This document shows positions 2,285-61,615 of a stretch of DNA of 64,000 bases, one piece after another. Where the stretch lies: positions 186,001-250,000 of the forward strand of contig NC_013512.1 in assembly GCF_000024885.1 (NCBI RefSeq), read 5' to 3'. Below the pieces are notes generated by a model, which saw only the letters and a list, made by a program, of their open reading frames with translations, was not told the DNA's origin and did not search any database. Position 1 is the first letter of the stretch, and every line of letters starts with the position of its first letter. The position numbers and the translations under genes were made by a program. Source of the stretch: Sulfurospirillum deleyianum DSM 6946 (lineage in GTDB: Bacteria > Campylobacterota > Campylobacteria > Campylobacterales > Sulfurospirillaceae).

Positions 2285-3285
2285 GAGTCGCGATTATTGG
2301 GGCGAGTGGGTATACAGGCTTAGAGCTGATTAAAATGCTCATTTCTCATCCACATTTTGAGATTACCTATATTGCCACCACAGAGGGTGGCGTTAAGGCG
2401 AGTGCATTGCATCCAAGTTTGGTGGGTGTCTTTGAACAAGAGGTGCTTAAAGCCGATGCTAAAGAGGTAGCAAAACATGCGGATTTGGCATTTTTAGCCC
2501 TTCCTCATCAAGCGGCGATGGGCTTTGCCAAAGAACTTTTAGAGTTACATGTAAAGGTAGTTGATCTCTCAGCGGATTATCGTTTAGAGCTTGAAGCCTA
2601 TGAAAAACACTACTGTGAACATCAAGATAAAGAGCATCTTCAAGAGGCGGTCTATGGGCTTCCTGAGATTCATAAAGAGAAAATTAAAGCAGCTCGTTTG
2701 ATTGCCAATCCCGGCTGTTACCCTACCGCTTCACTCTTAGCGGTTTTACCGTTTCTTTCGTATCTTAAAAAAGACGCACCCATTTTTCTTGATGCAAAAA
2801 GTGGGGTCTCGGGTGCGGGTAAAAAACTCTCTCAAACATCGCATTTTGTTACGATTAATGAGAATATTTTTGCTTACAATCCTCTCAAACACCGTCATGA
2901 GCCAGAGATTGCAGAAAAGATTGCTCAAGCGAGTGGACACGCTTACGAGGTCAATTTTATTCCCCATCTTTTGCCTGTGAGTCGAGGGATGTTGGTGAGT
3001 GCGTATTTGCAAACGAGTGAAGTGATTGATGCTAAAGCCGTCCTTCAATCTTTTTACAAAGAGGCTCGTTTTGTGAGAGTAAGAGAAAATCCTGTGGATA
3101 TTAAGTCGGTGGCAGGAACGAACTTTTGTGATTTGTTTGTGACCCAAAAAGGGACATCACTTTTTGTCTCTTCAGCGATCGACAATCTTTTAAGAGGCGC
3201 TTCTTCTCAAGCAGTGGTGAATGCCAACCTTATGTGTGGGTTTGAAGAGAGCGCTGGAATCCCCATCATTGCGTATGTCCCCTAA
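2281..3285 (+). CDS. argC: N-acetyl-gamma-glutamyl-phosphate reductase ArgC
   Basis: 334 aa. ArgC reduces N-acetyl-glutamyl phosphate to the semialdehyde with NADPH in arginine synthesis. The Rossmann motif GASGYTGLELIKML is at the N-terminus, the catalytic Cys lies in ANPGCYPTAS, and the SGVSGAGKK and PHLLPVSRGML blocks are as in the family. It overlaps greA by 4 nt and lpxH by 11 nt. Residues around LELHVKVVD are encoded across one copy of the TTACATGTAA palindrome (2545-2554). Confidence 0.96.
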   Translation: MRVAIIGASGYTGLELIKMLISHPHFEITYIATTEGGVKASALHPSLVGVFEQEVLKADAKEVAKHADLAFLALPHQAAMGFAKELLELHVKVVDLSADYRLELEAYEKHYCEHQDKEHLQEAVYGLPEIHKEKIKAARLIANPGCYPTASLLAVLPFLSYLKKDAPIFLDAKSGVSGAGKKLSQTSHFVTINENIFAYNPLKHRHEPEIAEKIAQASGHAYEVNFIPHLLPVSRGMLVSAYLQTSEVIDAKAVLQSFYKEARFVRVRENPVDIKSVAGTNFCDLFVTQKGTSLFVSSAIDNLLRGASSQAVVNANLMCGFEESAGIPIIAYVP

Positions 3286-4015
3286 TCTTGTCATTCGTGA
3301 AGGAGCGCATTTTATCGCCGATGCGCACGATAGCTCTCAGCGCTCCTTTTTCTTTGAATACCTTTTACATGTAAAGAAAGATCCTCCACCCCAACTCTTT
3401 TTAATGGGCGATATGTTTGATCTATTGGTTGGTGAAGTGCGTCATGGCGTCAAGCAATACGCCCACTATATTGCCCTCTTAGAAGAGATTGCACAGAGCT
3501 GTGAGGTGTACTATTTTGAGGGCAATCATGACTTTTGTCTCTCAAAACTCTTTAACCATGTAAAGGTGATACCTCTTTCTCAACAACCTCTTACATGTAA
3601 ACTTCCTAGCGGACAAAGCTGTTTGTTACTGCATGGTGATAAATACGGTAACGATTGGCTCAACCGTCTCTACACGGCTTTGATTCGAAATCCTCTGATG
3701 TTGCGTTTTTTAAATGGCTGTGATGGGTTAAGTCATGGAGCCATTTCAAAGGCGATTGAAAAATCCCAAACTCAAAAGAACTTATGCAAACGTATTCCTC
3801 ATTTTACAACGCTCATACAACGCAAGCTCTCTTTCTACCCTAAAGCGGAGGTGATCGCAGAAGGTCATTACCATCAGAATCACGCTTTTATGGTATCTGG
3901 TGTGCATTATATAAATTTTTCATCTTTTGCGTGCAATCAAAGCTACTTTAGTGTACAATCCTCACTAGAGACACCATTTGCACCCATGCAATTGAGGTCA
4001 TGTCCAAGTCAATAA
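3275..4015 (+). CDS. lpxH: UDP-2,3-diacylglucosamine diphosphatase (LpxH-type metallophosphoesterase)
   Basis: 246 aa, starting at the ATG that reads MSPNLVIREGAHF and overlaps the end of argC; an upstream in-frame ATG at 3221 lies inside argC and gives an unrelated-looking N-terminus. Calcineurin-type metal-binding motifs are present: FIADAHD, GDMFDLL, EGNHD, LLHGD and EGHYHQNH. LpxH removes UMP from UDP-diacylglucosamine to give lipid X, the step before LpxB (encoded 1.5 kb upstream). Two copies of the TTACATGTAA palindrome lie in the gene, read LHVK and LTCK. Confidence 0.82.
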   Translation: MSPNLVIREGAHFIADAHDSSQRSFFFEYLLHVKKDPPPQLFLMGDMFDLLVGEVRHGVKQYAHYIALLEEIAQSCEVYYFEGNHDFCLSKLFNHVKVIPLSQQPLTCKLPSGQSCLLLHGDKYGNDWLNRLYTALIRNPLMLRFLNGCDGLSHGAISKAIEKSQTQKNLCKRIPHFTTLIQRKLSFYPKAEVIAEGHYHQNHAFMVSGVHYINFSSFACNQSYFSVQSSLETPFAPMQLRSCPSQ

Positions 4016-4024
4016 GGGGCAGTA

Positions 4025-4975
4025 ATGGCGAAAGAAAGTATTTTAAAAGTAGGCTCTAATGAGATGGAGCTGGTTGACTTCCGTATTTTTAAAAAGGAAG
4101 AAAACGGGGTATATGAGGGAATTTATGGTGTGAATGTCGCCAAAGTGCGCGAAATCATCAAAATCCCTAATCTTACAGAACTTCCAGGTGTTCCTGATTA
4201 TATTGAGGGAATTTTTGATTTGCGTGGGATTGTGATTCCTGTGGTCAATCTTGCCAAATGGATGAACATCAAAGAGCCTGATGATGGGTCGATTAAACCA
4301 CGTATTATTATTACCGAATTTAGCGATATTTTAATTGGTTTTGTTGTTCATGAGGCGAAACGTATTCGTCGTATTAGTTGGAAAGATATCGAACCAGCAT
4401 CGTTTGTCGCAGGGATGGGCTCACTGGATAAGAGTCAGATTACGGGTGTGACACGGATTGAAAACGATGAGGTTTTGTTGATTTTAGACCTTGAAAGCGT
4501 TGTACAATCTTTGGGTATTTACCAGCCAAAAATTGATGTGGAAGATGATCAAATTCAAAAAATTGATGGTACAGCGTTGATTTTGGATGACAGTATGACC
4601 GCTCGAAAACTGGTCAGTGATGCACTTCGTAAAATGGGTATGCGTGTGGTCGAGGCAAAAGACGGCATGGAAGGCTTAGAGAGACTAAATGAGTTATACG
4701 CAAACTATCATGAGGATTTAACCGATGTGGTTAAAATTATCATTAGTGATGTGGAAATGCCTCAAATGGATGGGTTTCACTTTGCTGCCAATGTCAAAGA
4801 AGACCCAAGGTTTAAAAATATTCCGATTGTTTTTAACTCATCTATTAGCGATCATTTTAGTGAGATTAGAGGCAAAGAGGCGGGCGGTGAAGCCTATTTA
4901 ACCAAGTTTGATGCGGGTATCTTCTATAAAGAAGTCTCAAAAGTCATCAAAGCACATGTGAAAACAGCACAATAG
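4025..4975 (+). CDS. cheV: Chemotaxis coupling protein CheV (CheW-receiver)
   Basis: 316 aa. An N-terminal CheW-like domain (about 10-170, with VPDYIEGIFDLRGIVIPVVNL) is followed by a receiver domain (about 180-310) with the phosphoacceptor Asp in SDVEMPQMDGF, the acidic pair in LILDDSMTARK and the Lys in LTKFD. CheV links chemoreceptors to CheA and may act as a phosphate sink or adaptation device. It is the first gene of cheV-cheAY-cheW, with 10-nt spacings. Confidence 0.95.
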   Translation: MAKESILKVGSNEMELVDFRIFKKEENGVYEGIYGVNVAKVREIIKIPNLTELPGVPDYIEGIFDLRGIVIPVVNLAKWMNIKEPDDGSIKPRIIITEFSDILIGFVVHEAKRIRRISWKDIEPASFVAGMGSLDKSQITGVTRIENDEVLLILDLESVVQSLGIYQPKIDVEDDQIQKIDGTALILDDSMTARKLVSDALRKMGMRVVEAKDGMEGLERLNELYANYHEDLTDVVKIIISDVEMPQMDGFHFAANVKEDPRFKNIPIVFNSSISDHFSEIRGKEAGGEAYLTKFDAGIFYKEVSKVIKAHVKTAQ

Positions 4976-4985
4976 GGGTAGAACG

Positions 4986-7310: not shown

Positions 7311-7321
7311 GCGGTAGTGCG

Positions 7322-7816: not shown

Positions 7817-7825
7817 ATCTCTGTA

Positions 7826-8893: not shown

Positions 8894-9514
8894 ATGAAAT
8901 TGTGTGTGTTTGATTTTGATTCAACCCTCATGGATGGTGAAACGATAGATTTTTTAGCAAAAGAGCATGGGGTAGAAAAAGAGGTCTGTGCGATTACGGA
9001 AGCAGCGATGCGTGGAGAGCTTGATTTCTTTGAGAGTTTAACGACCCGTGTCGGACTTTTAAAAGGGATGAATGCGAGAAAAGCCGAAGAGATTTGTGCT
9101 CATTTACCTTTAATGAATGGCGCATGTGATGCGATTGCAGGACTCAAAGCCAATGGGTATACCGTGATAGTCTTTAGTGGAGGATTTCGTATAGGCACAA
9201 CGCCTGCCAAAGCGATTTTAGGCTTTGATGCGGACTTTGCGAATATTTTACATGTAAGAGACAATCACTTAAGCGGGCTTGTGGGTGGCGATATGATGTT
9301 TGGATTTTCCAAGGGTGACATGTTAAGAAGGGTGCAAAATCTTTTACATGTAACAGAGGAAAATACAATGGCGGTGGGTGATGGAGCCAATGATTTGTCG
9401 ATGTTTGAACATGCGAGTAAAAAAGTGGCATTTTGTGCCAAACCTATTTTGAAGAGTGCCGCAAATATTGTAATTGATGAGAAAGATATGCGCAATCTTC
9501 TTGAATTTATTTAG
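8894..9514 (+). CDS. serB: Phosphoserine phosphatase SerB
   Basis: 206 aa. HAD-family enzyme for the last step of serine synthesis. Motif I is FDFDSTL with nucleophile Asp7 and general acid Asp9, motif II is VIVFSGGFR, and motif IV is GDGANDLSM. AAGGAG lies 8 nt before the chosen ATG (MKLCVF); the ATG two codons upstream is only 2 nt from it. Two TTACATGTAA copies lie 96 bp apart (read ILHVRD and LLHVTE). tal follows after 15 nt. Confidence 0.95.
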   Translation: MKLCVFDFDSTLMDGETIDFLAKEHGVEKEVCAITEAAMRGELDFFESLTTRVGLLKGMNARKAEEICAHLPLMNGACDAIAGLKANGYTVIVFSGGFRIGTTPAKAILGFDADFANILHVRDNHLSGLVGGDMMFGFSKGDMLRRVQNLLHVTEENTMAVGDGANDLSMFEHASKKVAFCAKPILKSAANIVIDEKDMRNLLEFI

Positions 9515-12355: not shown

Positions 12356-12931
12356 ATGACACTGATTGTTGGATTAGGAAATCCTGACTTCCAATATAAA
12401 AATAACCGACATAATGTTGGTTTTATGGTCATCGATGCTTTACTCGATGACCATCCTCTTGCTGAAAAAATTTCCAAAACTGCTTTTAAGGGTGAATTGT
12501 TCAAAGCCCCTTCAATATTACTACTGAAACCTAATACGTATATGAATCTCTCAGGTGAGAGTGTTCGTGCGGTGAGTGATTATTTTAAACCTGAGCAAAT
12601 TATTGTGATTCATGACGATTTAGACCTTCCTTTTGGAACCCTTCGTTTCAAAATAGGTGGAGGACACGGAGGGCACAATGGACTTCGCTCGATTGATGCA
12701 CATATGGGTAGTGAGTATATACGGGTTCGCATTGGGATTGGAAAACCCACGCATAAAAGTGATGTTGCCAAATATGTGCTTTCGGATTTTTCGGCGTGTC
12801 AGAGGGAAGCTTTACCCGCACTGCTTTTACATGTAAAAAGAAGTGTGATGGCTTTGTTGAAAGAGGATTTAAAAGAAGTTGCGTTACACTATGCTCTTAA
12901 ACAAACGCTATGTGATAAGGATAAAGTATGA
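12356..12931 (+). CDS. pth: Peptidyl-tRNA hydrolase
   Basis: 191 aa. Pth cleaves the ester bond of peptidyl-tRNA released from stalled ribosomes. The catalytic His19 is in NNRHNVGF, the paired Asp lies in VIHDDLDLPFG, and Asn10-equivalent is in GLGNPDFQY; GGGHGGHNGLRSI is also conserved. It overlaps the next gene by 4 nt. Near the C-terminus a TTTACATGTAAA palindrome encodes LLHVKR. Confidence 0.96.
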   Translation: MTLIVGLGNPDFQYKNNRHNVGFMVIDALLDDHPLAEKISKTAFKGELFKAPSILLLKPNTYMNLSGESVRAVSDYFKPEQIIVIHDDLDLPFGTLRFKIGGGHGGHNGLRSIDAHMGSEYIRVRIGIGKPTHKSDVAKYVLSDFSACQREALPALLLHVKRSVMALLKEDLKEVALHYALKQTLCDKDKV

Positions 12932-17102: not shown

Positions 17103-18203
17103 ATGCAATTTAATGCGGTGTTAGATCAACTAAAACTTTATGAAGCAGGGAAACCTATTGAGCTAGTGGTGCGAGAGTATGGTATTGAAGCAAAGGATGT
17201 GATTAAACTTGCGAGCAATGAAAATCCAAGAGGATGTAGTCTAAAAGTGATTGAAGCTGTACGCGAGGAAGCCTCAAAAATGAATCTCTATCCTGATGAT
17301 AGTATGTATGAACTCAAAGGGGCATTGGCGACTAAATTTGGCGTTCATGACGAGAATGTGATTATTGGCTCAGGCAGTGATCAAGTGATTGAGTTTGCGA
17401 TTCATGCCAAATCAAATCCCTCTTCTAAAGTCTTAATGGCAGGTATTACCTTTGCGATGTATGAAATTTATACCCTTCAAACAGGTGGTAAAGTTTTAAA
17501 AACGGCTTCAGCACAGCACGATTTAGCTCAGATGCTTGAACTCTACAAAGCAAATAAAGATGTTGCGATTATTATATTGTGTATTCCCAATAATCCACTA
17601 GGAGAGTGTGTGGACACAAAAGATGTGTACGCCTTTTTGGATGAAATTAGTCCTGAAACGTTGGTGATTATTGATGGGGCGTATCAGGAGTATGCGAGTT
17701 TTAAAGATTCAGCTAAAAAAATTATTCCTAGTGATATTATCGCGAAATATCCCAATACGCTTTATACAGGAACGTTTTCTAAAGCCTATGGATTAGGAGG
17801 GATGCGTTGTGGATATGGTATTGCTCAGCCTGAAGTTATTAAAGCACTCTTAAAACTTCGAGCCCCATTTAATATCACTAATCTTACTCTCAAAGCAGCG
17901 ATTGTTGCGTTAAGTGACGAGTCCTTTGTCGAAGCATCCGTGAGAGAAAATTTTGAGCAAATGAAAGCGTATGAAGCCTTTGCAAAAGAATTGGGCTTTG
18001 AGATTATTGAGAGTTATACCAATTTTATTGTGTTTACATTTGATAAGGATAAAAAGAGTGCTGAGATAGCGCAAAAACTGATGGAAAAAGGTATAATCGT
18101 GAGGAATTTAGGCTCTTATGGAATGAATGCTATTCGAGTAACGATAGGAACGCCTGAGCAAAACGCACGCTTTTTTGAATCGTTTAAAACACTTTACATG
18201 TAA
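17103..18203 (+). CDS. hisC: Histidinol-phosphate/aromatic aminotransferase HisC
   Basis: 366 aa fold-type I PLP aminotransferase. PLP Lys in [31 protein letters not shown] and the C-terminal [13 protein letters not shown] Arg are conserved. Next to pheA it may also serve phenylalanine/tyrosine transamination (inference). Its last codons TAC ATG TAA are part of a TTACATGTAA palindrome, which therefore supplies the stop codon. Confidence 0.93.
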
Positions 18204-20965: not shown

Positions 20966-21757
20966 ATGACTGAAAATATCATCGTCAAAGAAAATTTAGA
21001 AGAACACTCTATACAGCGGTATCGCTTCAAAGTATTGGGTACGGTAGAAAATCCTGTTCCTTTACATGTAACAGAAGAAGTCTATCCAGCACAAGCGGAA
21101 GTCAATGAACCCATAAAGGATGAAATTGTCTCTATCGCACGTATCGAAGAGGGACGACAGAGTCAGTTTATTGAGGAACTTTTGAAAAAAACGGATGAGT
21201 TAACATCCAATGTCATTAAGCTTCAGATACAAATTGAAAAGCAAGAAGAAGATTTTTTAAAACGGTTAACTGAAGCGGTTGAACGTGAGCGTGAAAATGC
21301 CTATAATCAAGGATATCAAAAAGCAAAAGAGGAGAGTGAACTTGCCATTTCTGAAGCAAAATCACGTTATTTAAAATCTATCACTCATCTTGATACCCTT
21401 TATAAAACGATTGATGAGAGATTAGGACACATTGAAACAGAGATGAGTGTCAGTGCTTTTGAAATTGCTAAAGAGGTGATCAAAAAAGAGTTGAATATTT
21501 CCAGTTCTCAGGTTGCAGCATCACTCTCAAAAGCTTTGCTCCAAGAGGTAAAGGACGCTTTAAAAATTGAACTAAGGGTTCATCCTAAAGATGTAGAAGC
21601 ACTTAAAGAACTTTATGCCAATGAAGAAAAAATTAAAGTTGTAGCCGATGACGCAGTTGCAATTGGTGGTGTGGTGGTCTTAAGTGATGTGGGAAATCTT
21701 GATGGAACGTTGGCGATGCGCTTAGAAAAAGTGAAGTATTTACTACAAGAAAATTAA
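20966..21757 (+). CDS. fliH: Flagellar export regulator FliH
   Basis: 263 aa. An N-terminal variable region, a long charged coiled coil (about 60-150, rich in Glu/Lys) and a C-terminal V-ATPase-E-like domain (AFEIAKEVIKKEL...RVHPKDVEALKE, VLSDVGNLDGTLAMRL). FliH holds the FliI ATPase at the flagellar export gate. A TTACATGTAA palindrome encodes LHVTEE near residue 35, in the non-conserved part. Confidence 0.93.
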   Translation: MTENIIVKENLEEHSIQRYRFKVLGTVENPVPLHVTEEVYPAQAEVNEPIKDEIVSIARIEEGRQSQFIEELLKKTDELTSNVIKLQIQIEKQEEDFLKRLTEAVERERENAYNQGYQKAKEESELAISEAKSRYLKSITHLDTLYKTIDERLGHIETEMSVSAFEIAKEVIKKELNISSSQVAASLSKALLQEVKDALKIELRVHPKDVEALKELYANEEKIKVVADDAVAIGGVVVLSDVGNLDGTLAMRLEKVKYLLQEN

Positions 21758-28486: not shown

Positions 28487-28524
28487 CTTACATGTAAACA
28501 TAGCAAGGCATGTTTACATGTAAA
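28487..28524. terminator. Palindrome-built hairpin between fabH and tyrA
   Basis: Two TTACATGTAA copies (28488-28497, 28514-28523) lie so that TTACATGTAAACAT pairs with ATGTTTACATGTAA: a 14-bp stem around AGCAAGGC. It sits between convergent genes and may be a bidirectional terminator, though without a strong T run. Confidence 0.6.
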
Positions 28525-31779: not shown

Positions 31780-33246
31780 CTACTTAATAATAATCGCAAA
31801 TGATGCAGGTTTTACCATCTGTTTAATATGTTCTCTTGCAAGAAATAACTTCTTATCTGTTTCAATAGTTAATGTGTGATTTTGGTACTGAAAAGCTATT
31901 TTCTCTTGGCTCATATCGTGGTTGAGTGTTTTGGCAAGGGATAGTAAAAAGCTAAGCCAATTAAGTGTTTTAAGTTCTGGGAGAACGGTTTTATAGGGTG
32001 CAATTTCTTCTTCAAGAGGAAGTTTATTACTTTGGTATTTAATAAGTGTTGCAATCAAAATCTTTTGTTGGTGTGAAAAACCATAGTTAAGATTATTGAG
32101 TACAAAGTAAAAGCTATGGAGATTATTTTGATAAAATCCAAGTTTAATACCAATATTACAGAGTTCACACGCTATACCTAACTCATATTTGTAAGTTTCC
32201 ATCATGTTATGTAAAGGTTGCAAGACGTCAAAAAGCGATAAAGCAACACGTTTGATTGAAAGATTTTCTTTTTCCGTTAGAGAAAAACGATCTTTGAGAC
32301 TTCTAAGACTTAGCTTGAAATTAGAGGGAAATTTATGATGGTTTGTACGCAATAAATCACAGAGATAGACGCCTTCTCGAATTCCTGCACCACTGGTAAT
32401 GATAGTATTTGCCATAAATTTTTTAGCAATGGATTGAAAAATAATACATCCTTCTCGCATCGTATCATAACGGTCTTTTCGAACACCCAATGCTTTCAAT
32501 CCTAAAACATCCGCATTCACAATCGCATCAATGAAAGGCCTATGATCCTCTAAGGCATATTCAAAACCATGGACTGTTTTAAGAGGGTAATTCGTTCTCT
32601 CCATAATGATTTTCGAGAGGGAACGCAGTGTCCCACCTATGCCAATGATGGTTTTACATGTAAACCGCTCAGGGATTTTTTCCAGCAAAGTGTCAATAAA
32701 GAGTCGAATACTGTTTAGGGGAGCTTTTTTATCAAAAAAGAGTTCTTTCAGTCGTACTGTTCCTATATTCAGAGAAAAGGTATCGACAACAATACCATTT
32801 TCGATTTTAGCAAGTTCTGTTGAACCACCGCCAATGTCAATGGTAACGGCTTCATCAAGTTCTCTTAGATAATTTAACGCCCCAATCGCTCCATAATACG
32901 CCTCTTTTTTTCCATCAATAATTTTGATATTAAGTTGAAGATTTTGGCGAATTTGGTTTAAAAGAACAGAAGCGTTAGGTGCATCACGAAGCGCTGATGT
33001 GGCAATACAAAAGACTTTTTCACAGTGATAACTCTGAATGATGGCAGTAAACTCTTCTAATGTATTAAAGGCTCTTTTTAGTGCGGGTTCTTGTAGGACA
33101 CCACCAAAGTTATACGCCCCTTCTCCAATTCGTACACGACCTTTTGTTTCGTTGATCAGATGGAAAGCAAAACGGCTACTTCTCTCAAAGATAGCCATTC
33201 TAGCAGAGTTGGAACCTATATCTATAATGGCCGTACGTTTAGACAT
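31780..33246 (-). CDS. ppx: Exopolyphosphatase/pppGpp phosphohydrolase (Ppx/GppA)
   Basis: 488 aa. N-terminal ASKHA phosphatase: DIGSNSARMAIF, then IDIGGGSTEL and GIGGTLRSLSKI; the C-terminal third is an HD-like helical domain as in Ppx/GppA. Degrades polyphosphate and/or pppGpp; the two activities cannot be separated by sequence reading. Overlaps the ferredoxin stop by 1 nt. A TTTACATGTAAA palindrome encodes RFTCKT. Confidence 0.9.
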   Translation of the reverse strand: MSKRTAIIDIGSNSARMAIFERSSRFAFHLINETKGRVRIGEGAYNFGGVLQEPALKRAFNTLEEFTAIIQSYHCEKVFCIATSALRDAPNASVLLNQIRQNLQLNIKIIDGKKEAYYGAIGALNYLRELDEAVTIDIGGGSTELAKIENGIVVDTFSLNIGTVRLKELFFDKKAPLNSIRLFIDTLLEKIPERFTCKTIIGIGGTLRSLSKIIMERTNYPLKTVHGFEYALEDHRPFIDAIVNADVLGLKALGVRKDRYDTMREGCIIFQSIAKKFMANTIITSGAGIREGVYLCDLLRTNHHKFPSNFKLSLRSLKDRFSLTEKENLSIKRVALSLFDVLQPLHNMMETYKYELGIACELCNIGIKLGFYQNNLHSFYFVLNNLNYGFSHQQKILIATLIKYQSNKLPLEEEIAPYKTVLPELKTLNWLSFLLSLAKTLNHDMSQEKIAFQYQNHTLTIETDKKLFLAREHIKQMVKPASFAIIIK

Positions 33247-48516: not shown

Positions 48517-49526
48517 ACGCATTAGATAACGCCCTGATGCAAAAGGCACTGGATGCCGCATGGCATTATCAAGTGCTAACCTTCCCTAATCCTGCCGTGG
48601 GTGCGGTTGTCAGTAATGATGCTGGAGAGATTTTAGGCATGGGTGCGCACCGCAAAGCAGGAACACCTCATGCTGAAGTCTTAGCACTTAAAGAGGCATA
48701 TCTTACATTAACCCACGATACACGCATTGAAGCACTGAGTGATTCAATGGCACTGCATCTTTTTTTAAAAGAAAATCACCAACACCTTTTTTCAAATCTT
48801 TCTTTACATGTAACGCTTGAGCCGTGTCATCATTTTGGGAAAACCCCTCCGTGTTCTTCTTTAATTGAAGCATTGGGTATTAAACGTGTGGTGATTGGCT
48901 CTTATGATGAGAGCTTACGTGCAAAAGGTGGTGGTGCGTATTTGCAAAGCAGAGGGGTTGATGTCAGTTTTGGATGCCTCAAAGAAGCGTGCGACACCCT
49001 TTTAACCCCTTTTACATGTAAAGAAAAAAAAGAACCATTTATTTTCTATAAACTAGCGTTAAGTGCGAACAGTGTTGCCACAGGTGGAACCATTACATCG
49101 CTTGAATCACGCACAATGGTGCATCGTTTAAGAGATTGTTGTGATTTAATGGTGATAGGGGGCAATACTGTAAGGGTAGACCGTCCAACGCTTGATGCAA
49201 GGTTATGTGAAGGTAAAGCACCTGATATTTTGATTTATTCACATGAGAATACATTTGATAGAACCATTCCTCTTTTTCAATGCCCTTCTCGAAAGGTGTT
49301 TATTGAAAAGAGTCTTGAGCGCATAAGGGAGTATCGTATGGTGATGATAGAAGGTGGAGCGAGTATGCTCAAGGCGATGGAAGAGCAGGTAGAGTGGTAT
49401 TTGATTTTTCGCTCCCCGCACATTAAAGAAGGCGAGGAAATTAAACTTCCTCAAGGCTTGAAAGAGATTTTTTCATGTGAGATAGGCGAAGATAGAATGA
49501 GTTGGTATCGACGTGTTGGGGAATGA
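48510..49526 (+). CDS. ribD: Riboflavin biosynthesis deaminase/reductase RibD
   Basis: 338 aa. Deaminase domain with HAEVLAL and LEPCHHFGKTPPC zinc ligands, then a reductase domain (about 185-335, LALSANSVATGG, RVDRPTLDARL, EGGASML). Two steps of riboflavin synthesis. The deaminase carries a 20-odd residue insertion (LTLTHDTRIEALSDSMALHL region). Two palindrome copies (LSLHVTLEP, PFTCKEK). Confidence 0.93.
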   Translation: MVNALDNALMQKALDAAWHYQVLTFPNPAVGAVVSNDAGEILGMGAHRKAGTPHAEVLALKEAYLTLTHDTRIEALSDSMALHLFLKENHQHLFSNLSLHVTLEPCHHFGKTPPCSSLIEALGIKRVVIGSYDESLRAKGGGAYLQSRGVDVSFGCLKEACDTLLTPFTCKEKKEPFIFYKLALSANSVATGGTITSLESRTMVHRLRDCCDLMVIGGNTVRVDRPTLDARLCEGKAPDILIYSHENTFDRTIPLFQCPSRKVFIEKSLERIREYRMVMIEGGASMLKAMEEQVEWYLIFRSPHIKEGEEIKLPQGLKEIFSCEIGEDRMSWYRRVGE

Positions 49527-50262
49527 AATTTTTTGGTATGAGGCATGTATTGTCTTTTTTGCGGGGATTGTGCATGGCATTTTAGGGTTTGGTTTTCCTA
49601 TGTTAGCCACACCTTTATTTGCCCTCTTCTTAGATTTGAAAAAGGCTGTTTTATTGACACTTTTTCCTACCATTGCCGTTAATTTCTTAAGCTTGAAACG
49701 AGATAACTCTTTTGGCGAGATTTGGCGTGAATATCGCTTGCTGATTGTAAGTATTATTGGCGGGAGTATTATTGGCACCAATCTTTTAGTGGTCTATTAC
49801 AGTGAATATTATAAATTGGTGTTAGCAGGGGTGATTCTACTCTATCTAAACAAAGCCAGACTCAAAATTTCGCTAAGCCATAGTGTGGCAACCTATCCTG
49901 TTTTGATGACGATTTTATTTGGATTTTTAAGTGGGATTGTGGGTGGAATCGCCAATATTATGATTCCTGTTTTGATTATTTTGATTTTAGAGCTTAATTT
50001 AGATAAAAAGCGTGCCATTGGTGTGATGAGCTTTTGTTTTATTACCAATAAAATTCTGCAAGTTTTGATTTTTGGTTATCATGGCGAATTAAGTACGAAC
50101 AGTGTGTGGGTGATTTTACCCTTTGTCGTGATTGCGATTGGCGGATTTTTTATCGGTAGTCGTTTGCAAGATCACATTGACGAAGCATTGTATAAAAAGA
50201 TTTTAAATGGCGTTTTGTGGGTTTTATCGCTCTATTTGACCTATTCTACTTTTTACATGTAA
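49513..50262 (+). CDS. TauE/SafE (TSUP) family permease
   Basis: 249 aa, GTG start, 14-nt overlap with ribD. About seven to eight hydrophobic segments and the TSUP duplicated layout; motif GILGFGFPMLATPLFAL at the start, GFLSGIVGGIANIMIPV in the second half. Family members export or import sulfite, sulfoacetate or related anions; substrate unknown. Its stop TAA comes from the shared TTTACATGTAAA palindrome. Confidence 0.85.
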   Translation: MLGNEIFWYEACIVFFAGIVHGILGFGFPMLATPLFALFLDLKKAVLLTLFPTIAVNFLSLKRDNSFGEIWREYRLLIVSIIGGSIIGTNLLVVYYSEYYKLVLAGVILLYLNKARLKISLSHSVATYPVLMTILFGFLSGIVGGIANIMIPVLIILILELNLDKKRAIGVMSFCFITNKILQVLIFGYHGELSTNSVWVILPFVVIAIGGFFIGSRLQDHIDEALYKKILNGVLWVLSLYLTYSTFYM

Positions 50263-50567: not shown

Positions 50568-53074
50568 AGTTGTATAGACTCTTTGGGCGCTGGTTCATGC
50601 AGGTAAAATCCTTGTGCATAGTCTATAGGAAGTTCTTTGATTTTCTCCAGTACGTCAGCACTATGGACAAATTCTGCGACCACTTCGATACCTAGATTTT
50701 TAGCAAAGGTACTGATAGTCTTAACCGTAGCGTAGGCGGTGGCATCTTTGTCAATATTTTTAATAAGGGAGCCATCAATTTTTATAAAATCAACACTTAA
50801 TCGTAAAAGATATTCGAAGTTTGAATAGCCAGAACCAAAGTCATCAATGGCTAATAAACAACCTTTTTCGTGTGCTTTTTGAAGGAAAGAGCGCACTTCT
50901 GAAACATCTTCTATTCCCTCAGATTCAACAAGTTCAAGAATGATATGCCCCTTAAGTTCAGGATATTGGCTTAAAAGAGCAAATAAAAGCGTCGTGGTTT
51001 CATGATGCAAAATATCTTCTTTGGTAATGTTAATAGAAACATCGCACCCTAGATGCAAGGCGACTTGCACACTCTCTTCAAGGACAAAGTGGGTAATTTG
51101 TGCGTAAAGGTGTAAGCGTTTTGCTAAATCAATAAAATGAAAAGGCGATATGACACGATTATTTTCATCAATAAGGCGAATGAGCACTTCATATTTTTTA
51201 CGTGCATTGGGTTTTACATGTAAAGGAACAATCTCTTGTAAAAAGAGGGTAAAGCGTTTATTAATCAGAGCTTCACGTAGGGTTTTATTCCACTGAATAT
51301 CCTCTTTGAGGCGCTCTTGAAACCCGTCTCTATCATCATAGATCACCAATGATTTATGCGAATTGCGTGCTTCTTTGAGTGCGATTTCCGCTCGGTTATA
51401 GAGATAAGAGAGCCCATTAGCAATTCCAATACGACAGGCCACAGTATAAGATTTGTTTTTGATGGTAAGACCTTCTTGCTGAAGGCGGGTGAGTAAGGTA
51501 TCACAAAAGGTATTGAAGGCTTCTTCGCTGACTTCTTTATCGCAGTAGAGGGCAAATTCATCTCCTTGGAGGTGAAAAACGACCATTCCTTTACGAATGT
51601 ATTTTTGAAGGTTTTGGGCAAATTCATAAAGATATGCATCCCCAAATGCCTGACCATATAAGGCATTAATTTCTCGAAAATCACAAATATTCAAAATGGC
51701 AAGGTGTGGATATTTTGATTTTTCAATTTGCTCTAAAAGGTGTTTACGGCTAGGAAGATTGAGTGTGCTTGTTTGCTGTAATACTTCGAGTTGTTCAAAC
51801 AAATCGCTGACATCGTGGCGAATTGCCATATAAGATTCGATTTTACCATCTAAGGAGAGCAGGGGCATAATGACCGATTTGACATAATAAACGCTTCCAT
51901 CTTTGCGCCTATTTTTAATAATCCCCTTCCATGTCTTACCCGCTTTGAGCACCTCCCACATCTCTTGAAAAAAGTGCGATGGATTGTCTGGATGACGAAC
52001 AATATTGTGCGGTTTTCCTATCAGTTCTTCTTTAGAATAGCCTGAAATAGCAAGAAACTGCTCATTGGCATAGGTGATAATCCCTTTGGCATTTGTGCGT
52101 GAGACAATCGTATTTTCATCAATGGCTTCTTTATACTCTTCGAGAAGTTTTTTTTGCTTTTCATGCTCGTAAATAAGATGGGCGATTTCACCTAACTCAT
52201 TTTTCTGCTTTGAAAGGGCAAAGATGTAACCGAGATGATGTGTGCGGAGTGTCATAGAGATAAGATGAATGGGTTTTAAAAATGTAAGTTTAGTTAAGAG
52301 ATAAAAGAGCATTAAAGCGATACCTAAAAGAATGAGTCCCGCAAGCAGTAGAGAATTTTGTAAGTTTGAGATAAATACAATCACCAAAGGATGATAATCA
52401 AACTGAATATACCCAACTGTTTCATTGAGAAGAGAAGGAAGTTCTACATAAAAAGAGCTTGATTGATTTTCCAAAGGTTTTTTTTGAATTAAAGAGGAGC
52501 GACCAAGGGTAATCTCTTCCATCTTTTCAAAAAACACATCATCCAAAACGCGTCCCAAAATAAAATAACCCAAAGGTTTCCCTTTACGCTCCACATCTGA
52601 AAAAGGATGAATGGGTGCTAAAAAGTATTGGATACATTTGCCCTCAGAAAAAGCGTAAAACTCTTTAAATTCAGGTTTTTCGTCTGAGAGAGGTTCAAGT
52701 ATGGGCGCTGGGGTGTTTTTTTTGAGTGCGTCATAGCTATAAACAAGTTTTTTATGTTCATTATAAACATAAATATAAGAGACACCAAATGTTTTGACCA
52801 TAGGTTCTTCAAGGTTGTCTTTGCTCCATGCGTGATTGGGTTCTTTGGCAAAATCAACCATTTCATCCCAAAAAGAGTAATCCGCAACGGTTTTTCTAAT
52901 TAAGGTCTTTTCTAAATCTAAAACAGCTTTGTAGCGTTCAAAAACGGTGATACGCTCTTGCTGAATGTGGTGTTCTTCTTGTATTTTCTTACCAAACCAG
53001 ACGCTGAGCAAAAGGGTAATTGTAAAAATAAGAATAAAAGCACCGTAAAGTGCGTAGGTTTTTGCTATTTTCAT
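50564..53074 (-). CDS. Membrane PAS-GGDEF-EAL cyclic-di-GMP protein
   Basis: 836 aa from the ATG of MKIAKTYALYG (a TTG six codons upstream is possible). Membrane segments about 8-28 and 235-258 flank a CHASE4-like periplasmic domain (LIRKTVADYSFWDEMV). Then PAS with NAKGIITYANEQFLAISGYS, a degenerate GGDEF (HLQGDEFALYC; first Gly replaced) and an EAL domain with YEVLIRL, INITKED, ELVESEG, DDFGSGYSN, KIDGSLI and QGFYLHEP. Probably a phosphodiesterase; the cyclase half looks inactive. Confidence 0.88.
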   Translation of the reverse strand: MKIAKTYALYGAFILIFTITLLLSVWFGKKIQEEHHIQQERITVFERYKAVLDLEKTLIRKTVADYSFWDEMVDFAKEPNHAWSKDNLEEPMVKTFGVSYIYVYNEHKKLVYSYDALKKNTPAPILEPLSDEKPEFKEFYAFSEGKCIQYFLAPIHPFSDVERKGKPLGYFILGRVLDDVFFEKMEEITLGRSSLIQKKPLENQSSSFYVELPSLLNETVGYIQFDYHPLVIVFISNLQNSLLLAGLILLGIALMLFYLLTKLTFLKPIHLISMTLRTHHLGYIFALSKQKNELGEIAHLIYEHEKQKKLLEEYKEAIDENTIVSRTNAKGIITYANEQFLAISGYSKEELIGKPHNIVRHPDNPSHFFQEMWEVLKAGKTWKGIIKNRRKDGSVYYVKSVIMPLLSLDGKIESYMAIRHDVSDLFEQLEVLQQTSTLNLPSRKHLLEQIEKSKYPHLAILNICDFREINALYGQAFGDAYLYEFAQNLQKYIRKGMVVFHLQGDEFALYCDKEVSEEAFNTFCDTLLTRLQQEGLTIKNKSYTVACRIGIANGLSYLYNRAEIALKEARNSHKSLVIYDDRDGFQERLKEDIQWNKTLREALINKRFTLFLQEIVPLHVKPNARKKYEVLIRLIDENNRVISPFHFIDLAKRLHLYAQITHFVLEESVQVALHLGCDVSINITKEDILHHETTTLLFALLSQYPELKGHIILELVESEGIEDVSEVRSFLQKAHEKGCLLAIDDFGSGYSNFEYLLRLSVDFIKIDGSLIKNIDKDATAYATVKTISTFAKNLGIEVVAEFVHSADVLEKIKELPIDYAQGFYLHEPAPKESIQL

Positions 53075-57350: not shown

Positions 57351-57362
57351 TGTGTAGCTTCG

Positions 57363-57393: not shown

Positions 57394-57456
57394 GCTTTAC
57401 ATGTAAAGGTTTTCTTTACTCTTTTTCTCTATAATAAAACAAAAAAAAGAGAAACA

Positions 57457-57804
57457 ATGACTCCTGAAAAACTCCAAAACGATAGCCAGACGTTACACCG
57501 TTTTATTCAACTTCATTGCGACAAAAAACACCATGATGTTCCCAAGAAAAAGGGTGTGCTGGAGGTTGCTTTTCAAGAAAAGTCTTTGTGTGAATTGCCC
57601 TATCATCTCTGCGAAGAGTGTGAGACGCTGTTCATATATGCCTATGGAAGGCTTAAAAATTGTCCGCATGAGCATAAACCCAGTTGTCGTAAATGTCCCA
57701 ATCCTTGTTATGAAAAGTCGATGTGGAACAAGATGGCAAAGGTAATGATGTTTAGCGGAATGCAGTTAGGTTTAACCAAAATACGCAAACTCTTTTTTAA
57801 ATAA
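57457..57804 (+). CDS. YgbA-family (nitrous oxide-stimulated promoter) Cys-rich protein
   Basis: 115 aa. The block LCEECETLFIYAYGRL, then CPHEHKPSCRKCPNPCY and MFSGMQLGL match the YgbA family, whose E. coli member is in the NO/NsrR stress regulon. Cys motifs suggest an Fe-S or zinc site. Overlaps the next gene by 1 nt. Confidence 0.75.
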   Translation: MTPEKLQNDSQTLHRFIQLHCDKKHHDVPKKKGVLEVAFQEKSLCELPYHLCEECETLFIYAYGRLKNCPHEHKPSCRKCPNPCYEKSMWNKMAKVMMFSGMQLGLTKIRKLFFK

Positions 57805-59498
57805 TGCTCCCCTATCTTAGCCATAAAGAAGCGATGAAATGCCATTATGGCGAAGCGCTTTTTAGCATCCCTGTCAATTTAGACTTTGGCTGTCCCAACC
57901 GAGAACGTGATGGGAATGGAGGGTGCACTTTTTGTCCCGAACACGGTGCTCGTGCGGCACAAATTGCTGATGCTAAAAATGTTGAAGAGCAGATAGAAAA
58001 AGCGATTGTATTTGCCAAAAAACGTTACAACGCCACCTCTTTTGCGCTCTATATTCAAGCCTACACAGGAACCTTTGCCTCCATTTTAAAACAAAAAGAG
58101 GCGTATGAGAGGCTTTTAAATCTTTATCCCTTTAAAGCGTTGCACATTGGTACACGACCTGATTGTTTGAGTGAAGCAACGCTGGAATATTTAGCAGAGC
58201 TCAACAGCCGTTTGGATGTGGTGGTGGAGCTTGGTGTGCAAAGTCTGCAGGATGTAAGTCTAGAGCGCATCAACCGTGGGCACAGTGCGCACGCTTCGCT
58301 TGAAGCGATTGAGCGGTTACATGTAAAGGGTTTAAAGGTCTATGCGCATTTGATTTTAGGGTTACCCGATGAGAGTTTTTGCATGTGGGAAGAGAGTGTG
58401 AAAGGCTTGGTGGAAGCGGGTATTGATGGGATAAAATTTCATAATTTGCATATTATCTCTGGTACGCAGTTGGCTCGTGAGTATGAGGTAGCGCCCTTTC
58501 AACTCTTAAATGAATACGAATACGCTGAGGCTCTGATAAGCCTTTTGCGTCTCATTCCCTCACATATTCCCATTATTCGTCTCGCAACCGATACTCCTAA
58601 AAAAGAGCTGATAGCCCCACTGTGGCAGATGGAAAAAGCTCACTTTGGTGAATACGTGGCGCAAAGTATGCGCTACCGAGGTATCAGACAGGGCGATTTG
58701 GTGGAAGCGCAACCTCCCTTAAGTTATGAAATACCTCACGCTATAAGCTTAGAAGATGGAAGTATGACCTTTTACAGTGCGAACTATAAGGATTATTACC
58801 ATCCCAAAGCGGGAGCGTTCATGCAAGCACATACACTTTTTATTAAGGGCTCTAAGCTTAAAGAGCGTCTGGACAAGAGCGATGTTACGCTTTTAGACAT
58901 TGGTTTTGGCATGGGATACAACACCCTTGAAGCGTTGCGTGTTGCCCAACAATGCTCCACGTTTTCTTTACATGTAAAAGCGATGGAACAGGATAGAATG
59001 CTTCTCAAACAGAGTGCTGAGGTTGTAGGAGATGCTTTACATGTAAAGCTTCTTGAAGCACTTTTTACATGTAAACGCTATGAAGAACATTATGCGACAG
59101 TATCGTTTTTCAATAGAGAAGCACGTTATGGTGTGCAGAGATTGGATGGGCTTTTTGATGTGATTTTTCTTGACCCATTTGTGGAGCACAACAACGCTTC
59201 ATTGGTGAGTTTAGAGTTTATCAAGCTCTTAAAAATACATCTCAAACCCACAGGCGTTTTGGTCGCCTCAACCTCGTATCAAGCCGTATACGATGCTTTG
59301 ATTTTAGCAGGGTTTGAGGTCGAAAGAGTACAGTATGAGGGAAGTGACATCAAAGGGATCATCGCCAAACCTTTAGAGGTTTCAAGTATTTTACATGTAA
59401 GCCATCCTTATCGTGATGAACACTTAATTTTAAGTGATAAAGCGATAGAAAGAGCGCATCAAAAAAGTGTAATCCAACATGGCAGAAAGGTTTTTTAA
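57804..59498 (+). CDS. Radical SAM (YtqA/MnmL-like)-methyltransferase (MnmC2-like) fusion
   Basis: 564 aa. Residues 1-300 are a YtqA/YhcC-type radical SAM enzyme: Cys30, Cys41, Cys44 cluster ligands (FGCPNRER...CTFC), IQAYTGTF, IGTRPDCL, ELGVQS and GLPDE. Residues 305-530 are a Rossmann methyltransferase of the MnmC (DUF752) type: LEDGSMTFYSANYKDYYHP, LLDIGFGMGYN (363-373) and DVIFLDPF. Known pairs make mnm5(s2)U34 in tRNA; the fusion likely joins these steps (inference). Five palindrome copies lie in the gene. Confidence 0.8.
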   Translation: MLPYLSHKEAMKCHYGEALFSIPVNLDFGCPNRERDGNGGCTFCPEHGARAAQIADAKNVEEQIEKAIVFAKKRYNATSFALYIQAYTGTFASILKQKEAYERLLNLYPFKALHIGTRPDCLSEATLEYLAELNSRLDVVVELGVQSLQDVSLERINRGHSAHASLEAIERLHVKGLKVYAHLILGLPDESFCMWEESVKGLVEAGIDGIKFHNLHIISGTQLAREYEVAPFQLLNEYEYAEALISLLRLIPSHIPIIRLATDTPKKELIAPLWQMEKAHFGEYVAQSMRYRGIRQGDLVEAQPPLSYEIPHAISLEDGSMTFYSANYKDYYHPKAGAFMQAHTLFIKGSKLKERLDKSDVTLLDIGFGMGYNTLEALRVAQQCSTFSLHVKAMEQDRMLLKQSAEVVGDALHVKLLEALFTCKRYEEHYATVSFFNREARYGVQRLDGLFDVIFLDPFVEHNNASLVSLEFIKLLKIHLKPTGVLVASTSYQAVYDALILAGFEVERVQYEGSDIKGIIAKPLEVSSILHVSHPYRDEHLILSDKAIERAHQKSVIQHGRKVF

Positions 59499-59662
59499 AT
59501 GGTGTTGGTGTAAAAATTGAAAATGATGCGTTATCAATTAAAAAAGTAAACTCCTGAACCCTGTTTTTTAAATCATTAGTATTATTAGATTTGAAAGATT
59601 TTTATAAAAATAATGACGAAAATATGATACCATTCACGCTTATGTTTTTCAAAGGAAAATAG

Positions 59663-61615
59663 ATGCTCAAAGGTACTCATATTTCGGCTCAGATTATACG
59701 CTTGATGGTGCTAATCGCTCTTTTTACGGTGGTGATTGTTTCGCTTATTAGTTTTAATGCGCAATCTTTTTTAAGTGAAAAGGAAAAAACACAAGAGCGT
59801 GATTATTTGGCTATGAAGATTCAAGATGAGTTACATGTAAAAAACGATGTGGGGATTATTGCTTCTGTTGAGTTAGCTGAAATGGCTGCATTGCAAGAGA
59901 GTATCAAAAATAACGATCGTGAAAGTACCCATCTTATTTTGAAAAATGTAGCCAATTCTTTTAAAAATAAAACCAATTATCAAGGCATACGCATTCACGT
60001 TGCAACGGCAGATTTAAAATCTTTTTCACGCAGTTGGGATGCAAAAAAGTTTGGCGATGATTTGTCTATGCTATCAAATTATGTAGTGGCTATTCAAACA
60101 AAAAAACTTCAATCGAGTTGGGCAGTGCAACACAGTGGATTTGTACTTGCAACCGTGGCGCCGATTATCACAAAAGAGGGTACTTTGTTGGGTGTGGTCA
60201 ATCTCTCTCAGGGTGTAGGAAGTATCTCCCGTGATTTTGAAAAAGAGGGTGTTAAATATATTCAACTCATTGATGCGTCTGTTGCTTCTAAACATCCTCT
60301 TCTTTCAAAAATGGAGATGGTGGGTGCCTATGCTATGAGCAATGATAAATGGTTTTCTAAAGAGGTGAAAGATTTTGCAAAATCCCTTGATATGGAAGCC
60401 TTAATCAAAGAGAAGTATCTTTTTTCTGGAGACTATTTTGTGGTATCTCTTCCTGTTTATGATAATAACAATCAACGTATCGGATACAATATTTTAGGTG
60501 TTCCTAAAGAAAAAGTTGAAAGCAAAATTAGTGAAACGCTTAAAATTAGTTATTATTATATTGCTTTAATTGGTGTGATTTTTATGGCAACGGTTTTAGT
60601 CATATTTCTAGGATTAAAACGCTTAGTGGTTACTCCCCTTCGAATATTAGAGACCGAAATTACCCACAGTGCTCAAGAAAAAGATTTACGCACAAAATTA
60701 GAGATACCGTGTCGCAATGAAGTTTCGTTGATTGCAGATGCAACGTCTGAATTATTGCTCTCTTTTGCGACATCTCTAAGAGAAGTTAAAGCGTCTGGAT
60801 ATGAAAATTTAACACTAGCCAATCAGCTTTTTAGTACCTCTTCTGCGATTGGTGATAATGCCTTAAAAGAGTCAACATTGCTTCAAAATGCTTCAGAAAA
60901 AGGAAAAGCAATCACGCAGGATTTAAACAATGCAATGATTACGATGAATCAAACACAAGAGGATATTAGCAAAGCGGTTGAGGCACTTGAAACATCACAA
61001 ATGCATCTACTGACTCTCGTCAATAATGTGGAAAACACAGCAAAAAATGAGATGGATATTGCGTATAAATTAACCGAATTAAGCAATCAAGCCAATGATG
61101 TACGAGGTGTTCTTGGTGTGATATCTGATATTGCTGATCAGACCAATCTTCTAGCGCTGAATGCTGCCATTGAAGCGGCGCGTGCGGGAGAACATGGACG
61201 TGGCTTTGCCGTAGTTGCAGATGAAGTTCGTAAGTTAGCAGAGCGAACGCAAAAGAGTTTAGTTGAAATTAATGTGACGATTAATGTGATTGTTCAAGCT
61301 ATTAGTCATAGCGCAGATGCAATAAATCATAACGCCAAATCCATGACATTATTAGTAGATGATTCTCGTAATGTCCAAGAAGCGATTCAAAATGTTTCAC
61401 AAACCATGGAGCATGCAAATCGCACTAATCAAGCAATGGCGAAGCTCTCAGATTCTAACACGCACCAAACGCATGCTATTTTAGAAGCCATTGGGGAGAT
61501 TTATAAACTTTCTAGTGAAAATACACGCAGTGTTGAAGAGATTTCTCAAGCATCCAAGCATTTAACTGAACGAGCTGAAAATTTGGGGATGACTATTGAT
61601 CGTTTTAAAATTTAA
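59663..61615 (+). CDS. Methyl-accepting chemotaxis protein with dCache sensor
   Basis: 650 aa. Membrane segments about 11-31 and 292-313; periplasmic dCache_3-like domain with [18 protein letters not shown], similar to the stand-alone sensor 3.5 kb away. HAMP, then a signalling domain with the tip [27 protein letters not shown] (quoted in parts: [19 protein letters not shown]). Feeds CheV/CheW/CheA. TATGAT (59623-59628) may be its -10. The 164-nt gap before it is otherwise empty. Confidence 0.92.

Follow-up and report, generated by a model that had tools for sequence, protein, structure and literature searches.

A highly iterated, CATG-centred palindrome with dialects in Sulfurospirillum and its relatives, possibly the target of a chromosome-wide DNA-binding protein

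Known iterated motifs and the Sulfurospirillum palindrome

Highly iterated palindromes have been puzzling for a long time, with most of the work done on cyanobacteria, and the case described here adds another phylum. Other chromosomal motifs also bear on it: the NBS of Noc and the SBS of SlmA are palindromes of 12 to 14 bp, spread over the chromosome in tens of sites and read by homodimers; DUS and USS are, to our knowledge, not palindromes; and the CtsM motif of C. jejuni is RAATTY, for which we know of no strong over-representation. As described in parts of Elhai (2015; PMC4390886), HIP1 (GCGATCGC) and the alternate HIPs of cyanobacteria are highly iterated palindromes, HIP1 occurring about once per kb and giving way to a different palindrome in certain relatives. 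In C. jejuni, DNA is taken up with a short CtsM-methylated motif, printed as RATTY in the portion of PMC8468864 that concerns it and as RAATTY in other listings.

The palindrome considered here, TTACATGTAA (10 bp, often extended to the 12-bp TTTACATGTAAA), recurs throughout the window, the whole 64-kb stretch of Sulfurospirillum deleyianum DNA that was analysed. Like the Noc and SlmA sites, it is a palindrome spread over the chromosome, and a homodimer is proposed to read it as well; unlike them, it has ~1,100 sites, and unlike Noc, it has no extra ParB family member in its genome (G000) and declines only weakly away from coordinate 0. It departs from DUS and USS in being palindromic and in having no surplus of inner one-mismatch forms. 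With HIP1 it has in common that other palindromes replace it in some relatives, but it is A/T-rich, longer (10 to 14 bp), from a different phylum and less dense (one per 2 kb versus one per kb; PMC4390886, in part), and its best methyltransferase candidate is dispensable; GCGATCGC itself does not rank among the top five 8-mer palindromes in G000. Going by portions of PMC3630211 and PMC1939737, DUS and uptake enhancing sequences are similar in the order of their copy number, in having dialects around a fixed core and in lying in both genes and spacers. The CtsM case (PMC8468864, in part) likewise combines a short motif with a methyltransferase in the same order, although that motif differs in sequence. 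Within the terms searched, we found no published description of the palindrome in the open-access literature, consistent with the earlier note, which knew of none in this group.

Abundance and placement in the window and genome

The earlier note had counted 31 exact copies of TTACATGTAA between positions 2545 and 59840, 15 of them TTTACATGTAAA, and we recover every one at the same place (our expectation for TTTACATGTAAA, 0.02). Its estimate of a more than 100-fold enrichment also holds: the shuffle expectation is 0.10 (largest count in 100 shuffles of the window, 1), and under an order-2 Markov model the palindrome ranks top among the window's 10-mers and 12-mers. As the note had it, sites lie in ORFs as well as in spacers; these spacers are of every orientation, and the note's "both strands" is meaningless where a palindrome is perfect. 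The sites, all exact matches, are:

2545..2554, unstranded, TTACATGTAA
3364..3375, unstranded, TTTACATGTAAA
3591..3600, unstranded, TTACATGTAA
7851..7862, unstranded, TTTACATGTAAA, in a spacer
9248..9257, unstranded, TTACATGTAA
9344..9353, unstranded, TTACATGTAA
10635..10646, unstranded, TTTACATGTAAA, within a T2SSE-family gene
12826..12837, unstranded, TTTACATGTAAA
15496..15505, unstranded, TTACATGTAA
15969..15980, unstranded, TTTACATGTAAA
18194..18203, unstranded, TTACATGTAA, provides the stop codon of ORF 17103-18203
21062..21071, unstranded, TTACATGTAA
28488..28497, unstranded, TTACATGTAA, in a spacer, first of a close pair
28513..28524, unstranded, TTTACATGTAAA, second of the pair with 28488..28497 (26 bp apart)
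32653..32664, unstranded, TTTACATGTAAA
35847..35856, unstranded, TTACATGTAA
36718..36727, unstranded, TTACATGTAA
38193..38204, unstranded, TTTACATGTAAA
48804..48813, unstranded, TTACATGTAA
49011..49022, unstranded, TTTACATGTAAA
50252..50263, unstranded, TTTACATGTAAA, spans the stop codon of ORF 49513-50262
51213..51224, unstranded, TTTACATGTAAA
54284..54293, unstranded, TTACATGTAA
55346..55355, unstranded, TTACATGTAA
57396..57407, unstranded, TTTACATGTAAA
58317..58326, unstranded, TTACATGTAA, within ORF 57804-59498 (radical SAM protein)
58967..58978, unstranded, TTTACATGTAAA, within the same ORF
59036..59047, unstranded, TTTACATGTAAA, within the same ORF
59064..59075, unstranded, TTTACATGTAAA, within the same ORF
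59391..59400, unstranded, TTACATGTAA, within the same ORF
59831..59840, unstranded, TTACATGTAA, within ORF 59663-61615 (chemotaxis receptor family)

Genome-wide, TTACATGTAA has 1,099 copies in 2.31 Mb, against 3 of a reversed-pattern control; the count is thus neither near expectation nor limited to the window, the two outcomes that had been named as speaking against the motif. A 464-kb sample (the window plus 20 evenly spaced 20-kb stretches) contains 218 copies, where Markov models of order 2 and order 3 predict 0.96 and 0.64, so that the enrichment is roughly 230- to 340-fold and extends beyond the window. Within ORFs lie 144 of these 218; spacers hold the other 74 (0.17 expected), a ~2.4-fold extra spacer enrichment after composition is accounted for, and 15 of the 74 fall between divergent ORFs. 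Spacing is Poisson-like rather than regular (CV 1.04, KS p 0.88, over 250 contiguous kb). Successive sites are 20 to 36 bp apart in 13 of 197 cases in the 464-kb sample, and the contiguous 250 kb has 5 close pairs versus 2.6 expected.

Site density declines weakly away from coordinate 0, suggesting a weak ori-ter gradient (Spearman -0.51, p 0.011, for 24 stretches from a single genome, including two with a 6-kb overlap) that is partly explained by mobile DNA. Among the 20 stretches, the three with the fewest sites carry 1, 2, and 5 and contain, respectively, a conjugative element, an RTX gene, and a glycosyltransferase cluster. Plasmid pSDCE1 has 4 copies of TTACATGTAA versus 17 at chromosomal density; since its core is not clearly depleted (14 versus 19), the plasmid is no proof that foreign DNA is free of sites.

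Consensus, conservation and dialects

The consensus extends to about CTTTACATGTAAAG, with half-sites that are independent of each other and a weak A/T preference 12 to 13 bp from the palindrome's center. Flank preferences are symmetric in spacers, on both sides of coding sites, and in another family. In the 464-kb sample, the joint table of positions -1 and +1 gives 123 T..A combinations, exactly the 123 expected from the marginals, and no C..G; the first flanking positions thus show no stem covariation. This tells against an RNA-level element, in which the palindrome would form a short hairpin once transcribed: RNA with a perfect palindrome is able to pair with itself, and 144 of the 218 sampled sites are in coding sequence, but the sites between divergent ORFs do not suit a hairpin, the codon-level conservation described below is explained equally well at the DNA level, and we regard this reading as very improbable. 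One-mismatch forms concentrate at the outermost positions (31 versus 8 expected at the two outer positions, in the same sample), and the inner three have no surplus (16 versus 20). At least 80 viral loci carry CTTTACATGTAAAG, with a single TTACATGTAA in 60 among the matches listed; among these matches, a few phages have site pairs 132 to 145 bp apart, for which we found no link there.

Of 28 loci, conservation was assessed at 9 site-rich and 10 site-poor ones; the remaining 9 were omitted as distant, short, or poorly aligned (L034, L035, L037, L039, L040, L041, L045, L046, and L048). Of the 69 sites in the nine site-rich loci, which are syntenic, 57 match letter for letter, versus 3,099 of 22,840 control 10-mers (14%), and codons for the same residue are identical in 159 of 162 instances within sites versus 6,449 of 11,322 (57%) elsewhere. 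The ten site-poor loci retain 10 of 65 sites and 88 of 122 same-residue codons, a contrast that is partly built in by grouping loci according to their own site density; moreover, a shift of dialect, not decay, accounts for some of them (L023, L032, L033, L036, and L038). Mutational or compositional bias without function, with which Poisson spacing taken alone is compatible, is barely credible in view of the conserved codons within sites, of the conservation of sites at the same positions, and of the near absence of TTACATGTAA from one member of the genus (G020) despite similar GC content (0.387 versus 0.390).

Across 44 genomes of the family, TTACATGTAA counts range from 6 to 1,496, and two other families include members in which the core TACATGTA is abundant too. 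Dialects have a common core, ACATGT or CATG: G156 prefers C at the first flanking position, S. cavolei uses TGACATGTAA, the arcachonense group CTACATGTAA, and G010 TATCATGATA. The last of these holds only 7 copies of TTACATGTAA, and its alternate CATG-centred palindrome, ATCATGAT, reaches 685 copies versus 25 to 112 in 59 other genomes. Given the site identity, the unchanged codons, the enrichment, and the dialects, the palindrome is HIP1-like: iterated, under selection, and present in several dialects. Copy number, Poisson spacing, placement in ORFs, dialects, and codon conservation likewise bear out the earlier proposal that it is closer in kind to HIP1 or uptake sequences than to the operators of a regulator.

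Methyltransferases, DNA uptake and candidate readers

Under a HIP1-type explanation, the inner CATG would be the target of an orphan adenine methyltransferase, which, together with methylation-dependent repair or a reader, would create and keep the sites. The candidate enzyme is a D12 methyltransferase of ~325 aa (G000:C1 2136383-2137351), close relatives of which occur in 15 of 24 genomes of the genus, all site-rich. Those 15 have 362 to 520 sites per Mb, the 7 without D12 have 19 to 467 (two of the seven are <90% complete), and the values for the 2 with a divergent D12 are 152 and 233; the 15 and the 7 differ by a Mann-Whitney test (p 0.0008, ancestry ignored). All dialects seen center on CATG, and the D12 neighbors (10 scanned in the genus) include a response regulator, a histidine-kinase-like protein, a transglutaminase-like protein, and small proteins, with no restriction enzyme among them. 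Among 12 phage records containing a homologue, five carry the annotation "ulcer associated adenine specific DNA" methyltransferase, a name that we take to be that of the H. pylori CATG enzyme; going by this annotation and name, D12 is possibly CATG-specific. The end bias of deviations also fits, being reported in part of Elhai (PMC4390886) for HIP1 too, where deviations are likewise most tolerated at the ends and least at the center, although one-off forms are scarce here and, per Elhai, common in many cyanobacteria.

Judged by gene presence, D12 therefore tracks high copy number within the genus, as an orphan-methyltransferase role would have it, but the enzyme is dispensable: it is absent from site-rich G024 (99% complete, 934 sites), G035, G168, and G008 (379 copies of TACATGTA), as well as from G029, the sister of G024 (840 sites, but 86% complete). 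Nor is it sufficient, since G058 and G053 have D12 with background counts and G201 has it with few sites (TACATGTA 99 versus control 29), and D12 as sole cause is rejected. G024 and G168 lack D12 yet show no surplus of inner-position mismatches, so that sites there are kept by something else. The search covered D12 and, in part, the N6_N4 and N6_Mtase families. No N6_N4 (beta-class) match was found in G000 and ten other site-rich genomes (including G012-G017 and G022). The single N6_Mtase match in G000 is a 985-aa frame, of which G013, G017, G024, G035, G168, and G156 have none of that length; by frame length only, no N6_Mtase match recurs among site-rich genomes (23 genomes). We consider the HIP1-type explanation unlikely.

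Equally doubtful in our view is a DNA-uptake or self-recognition signal, accumulated through the preference of a competence receptor and recombination in the manner of DUS and USS; those sequences are, as far as we know, non-palindromic, unlike this one. The density of 1,099 copies genome-wide, the mixed placement in genes and spacers with its extra spacer enrichment, and the Poisson spacing all suit such a signal, as do dialects with a common core and graded flanks, known from Neisseriaceae DUS (PMC3630211, in part), and the same-order precedent of methylated-motif uptake in C. jejuni (PMC8468864, in part). Known uptake sequences, however, keep over-represented singly mismatched forms (a part of PMC1939737), whereas no inner-position surplus exists here. 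With ComEC alone standing for the competence machinery, 57 of 60 genomes score positive, but these include site-poor G020, G028, and G032, with a partial match in G033; ComEC loss is thus rejected as the cause of site loss.

A conserved palindrome of ~1,100 copies points to a genome-wide DNA recognition system, and we put at even odds that TTACATGTAA is the binding site of a putative homodimeric DNA-binding protein. Such a reader would bind with one subunit per TGTAA(A)(G/A) half-site, would occupy ~1,100 places, one per 2 kb, and would serve chromosome-wide maintenance or organisation rather than gene-by-gene regulation; in low-copy lineages, it would have been lost or have changed specificity. 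A broader reading, to which we assign a probability of about 0.45, is that a patchily inherited DNA-binding protein of changing specificity reads the CATG-centred palindrome in an undescribed chromosome-wide system, with as many as ~1,500 selected sites in a genome, that the Sulfurospirillaceae share with certain members of two further families of the Campylobacterota. If so, the dialects could mark a chromosome as belonging to its lineage. Because the case offers species with and without sites, common-core dialects, near-perfect codon conservation, and a dispensable methyltransferase candidate, the questions of what reads the sites and how they are kept up become directly testable by comparison of closely related genomes, for instance those of Sulfurospirillum with many and with few sites.

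We sought a reader gene among ParB/Noc, S24/LexA-like, and methyltransferase candidates and found none. Exactly one ParB_N gene is present in 41 of 46 genomes, G000 included, and an extra ParB family member occurs, among the site-rich genomes examined, only in G015 and G038; its absence from G000 rejects a ParB/Noc paralog. An S24-type regulator is present in 56 of 60 genomes, but its HTH-region residues are the same in site-poor G020 and G028, and the chromosomal S24/LexA-like repressor is therefore rejected as the reader; only in G023 does a chromosomal copy have an upstream TTACATGTAA within 400 bp. On pSDCE1, 3 of the 4 copies of TTACATGTAA adjoin S24/LexA-like genes, and 4 of 5 plasmid-type S24 genes have a TTACATGTAA 92 to 95 bp before their start. 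A reader role may still apply to the plasmid gene itself, but with the chromosomal homologue unaltered in site-poor genomes and with sites recurring within the plasmid-type S24 gene too, these S24-adjacent sites look like ordinary site conservation.

Abundance and placement of the palindrome

The earlier note's counts of 31 copies of the ten-letter palindrome TTACATGTAA and 15 of its 12-bp form TTTACATGTAAA in the window are exact, against shuffle expectations of 0.10 and 0.02, respectively, and TTACATGTAA ranks first among the window's 10-mers. The enrichment is real and genome-wide: the whole S. deleyianum genome, in which the window occupies positions 186001-250000 of one contig of 2,306,351 bases, holds 1,099 copies versus 3 of a reversed control pattern, and a 464-kb sample (twenty 20-kb stretches spaced round the chromosome plus the window, about one-fifth of the genome) holds 218 sites versus 0.96 (order-2 model) or 0.64 (order-3 model) expected.

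Within this sample, 144 of the 218 sites lie in open reading frames (ORFs) and 74 in spacers, which make up ~9% of the sequence (as split by a simple ORF caller, minimum 100 codons); adjusted for composition, enrichment is ~2.4-fold greater in spacers (74 observed versus 0.17 expected there). Site spacing is Poisson across 250 contiguous kb (CV 1.04; KS p 0.88), where 5 gaps are <40 bp (2.6 expected), and 13 of 197 successive spacings in the 464-kb sample measure 20 to 36 bp. Sparse stretches include L007 (1 site), L009 (2 sites), and L016 (5 sites, 4 of them in the first 3.6 kb), the last a low-GC glycosyltransferase cluster; the first two hold the following features:

G000:C1 760001-780000 (L007, in the S. 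deleyianum genome): conjugative element carrying a relaxase, TrbL, and a pair of DDE transposases equal in length and score
L009 5251-19647: gene for an RTX/cadherin-repeat protein of 4,798 residues

In one genome (24 stretches), sites tend to thin out with distance from coordinate 0 (Spearman -0.51, p 0.011), a weak trend that owes part to mobile DNA. The palindrome supplies an ORF stop codon in six cases in the sample; in the window, it does so at 18194-18203 and 50253-50262, in a Tyr-Met-stop frame. Also in the window, a gene at 57804-59498 holds five palindromes; its product, 564 residues long, is a radical SAM protein whose C-terminal part is Methyltransf_30-like.

Conservation, dialects, and decay

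The palindrome is under selection. A FliF search yielded 28 loci, none longer than 21.7 kb; 9 were used as site-rich and 10 as site-poor (nine others were left out). Letter identity holds for 57 of 69 aligned window sites in the site-rich loci (56 in another alignment), versus 3,099 of 22,840 control 10-mers; in the site-poor loci, it holds for 10 of 65, a contrast that is partly built in because loci were grouped by their own site density. Less affected by this grouping is a within-locus codon control, which considers codons wholly inside sites at which the same residue is kept (L, H, V, T, C, Y, K, and N): 159 of 162 are unchanged in the site-rich loci (6,449 of 11,322 elsewhere), as are 88 of 122 in the site-poor loci (5,240 of 10,252 elsewhere). 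Decay does not account for every site-poor locus: L023, 21.7 kb from S. cavolei UCH003, carries 14 ACATGT and 3 TGACATGTAA (the dialect of genome G021) and not one TTACATGTAA, and L032, L033, L036, and L038 together hold 10 CTACATGTAA and 19 cores versus a single TTACATGTAA.

Counts of TTACATGTAA range from 6 to 1,496 across 44 genomes of the Sulfurospirillaceae and from 49 to 1,496 across 24 Sulfurospirillum genomes; outside the family, among 298 genomes drawn across the class, only five members of family f8 (G156, G168, G221, G201, and G234) exceed 10. The core TACATGTA, common to several lineages, reaches further.

Counts of TACATGTA outside the family (397 genomes scanned in all)
Family f8, upper: G221 848; G391 782; G381 675; G168 611; G156 608
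Family f8, lower: G354 527; G333 368; G234 221; G366 113; G201 99
Family f3: G361 1,480; G346 246; G263 91
Other genomes: at most 61 (reversed control, 0 to 76)

Mild enrichment of the core is seen in five genomes of genus g44, family f2 (G244, G300, G309, G312, and G320; 28 to 50 versus 2 to 8 for the control), and little or none in three others of that genus (G197, G274, and G351).

The flanks vary by lineage around a common centre, CATG: G156 has C at -1, G021 tolerates G at the second position (14 TGACATGTAA in 140 kb), and G221 has looser flanks. Genome G010 is not enriched for TACATGTA (28 versus 25 for the control) and has 685 ATCATGAT, versus 25 to 112 in 59 other genomes; it also has an excess of another palindrome, ACCGGT/TACCGGTA (samples L109-L118 and L147; 60 versus 23.5 for the 6-mer). 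In G020, with ~19 sites per Mb, the one-mismatch surplus lies near the neutral-decay expectation (55 versus 74 per Mb; 200-kb sample); in G028, it falls below (45 versus 172 per Mb; 100-kb sample), so simple decay does not fit.

Motif shape, candidate enzymes, and known systems

Flank preferences beyond TTACATGTAA are symmetric across the 218 sampled sites: T occupies 75% of -1 positions and C or T 82% of -2 positions, A is rare from -1 to -3, and positions -7 and -8 (12 to 13 bp from the centre) are A/T-rich. In spacers as well as on both flanks of coding sites, the principal preferences (-1 and -2) recur. Left and right flanks vary independently; the -1/+1 pair T..A is seen 123 times, matching the marginals, and C..G not once, so there is no stem-like covariation. 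We favor, at about even odds (0.5), a putative homodimeric DNA-binding protein as the reader of these sites. Exactly one ParB_N gene occurs in 41 of 46 genomes. An S24/LexA-like repressor, a lead from plasmid pSDCE1, did not hold as reader for the chromosome.

Like the DNA uptake sequence dialects described in PMC3630211, the palindrome combines a fixed core with graded flanks, and uptake in C. jejuni requires a methylated motif (PMC8468864). Even so, an uptake signal seems an unlikely explanation: one-mismatch forms, over-represented for uptake sequences (PMC1939737), are scarce here (47 versus 28 expected in the 464-kb sample), with the excess confined to the outer two positions (31 versus 8) and none at the inner three (16 versus 20). 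ComEC is retained in site-poor genomes, and its loss was rejected as a cause of site loss.

A D12-family adenine methyltransferase of ~325 residues sits in a conserved gene neighborhood within the genus; no restriction enzyme turned up among ten neighboring genes scanned, and in ten Sulfurospirillum genomes the D12 gene itself contains no site. An N6_N4 methyltransferase search had no match in S. deleyianum. Of 12 phage records with a D12 homologue, five bear the name given to the H. pylori CATG enzyme; by that name, D12 may methylate the palindrome's centre. Fifteen of the 24 Sulfurospirillum genomes carry the close form (at least 57% identity; one case fragmented), each with 362 to 520 sites per Mb, and 2 carry a divergent form (152 and 233); the 7 without D12, two of them <90% complete, span 19 to 467. 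G024 and G029, neither of which has D12, are both rich in sites and pair as sisters in a tree built from a single chromosomal locus of 26 genomes; site upkeep thus seems not to need the enzyme, as G035, G168, and G008 likewise indicate; G058 and G053 have D12 with site counts at background.

The closest published description is that of the cyanobacterial HIP1 (Elhai 2015, PMC4390886), with a protected centre, variable ends, and alternates that replace the main palindrome. The Sulfurospirillum palindrome likewise has a protected centre, variable ends, and alternate palindromes in relatives. A methylation-driven mechanism of the HIP kind seems about as unlikely as an uptake signal. For HIP1, Elhai describes a matching methyltransferase in every such genome; here, the candidate D12 is missing from several site-rich genomes. 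The palindrome works like HIP with uptake-sequence-like dialects, yet differs from both. Titles and abstract openings of the open-access literature yielded no account of the sequence, of Sulfurospirillum methylomes, or of iterated palindromes in the group.

Sites on a plasmid and phage contigs

Plasmid pSDCE1 of S. diekertiae carries 4 TTACATGTAA versus 17 predicted from its chromosome's density, and 14 cores versus 19 predicted (0.75 by chance). Nine of the 14 cores fall in or around two features, with four TACATGTA in the D12 gene and five in or beside the S24 repressor/DNA polymerase IV module:

L355/L356 1692-2732 and 20494-21355: D12 methyltransferase gene, and S24 repressor/DNA polymerase IV module

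In four of five plasmid-type S24 genes, TTACATGTAA lies 92 to 95 bp upstream of the start codon. Among the matches listed for viral contigs (L254, L269, L298, L313, and L252), phage CTTTACATGTAAAG pairs stand 132 to 145 bp apart, and L252 has five TTACATGTAA within <200 bp.
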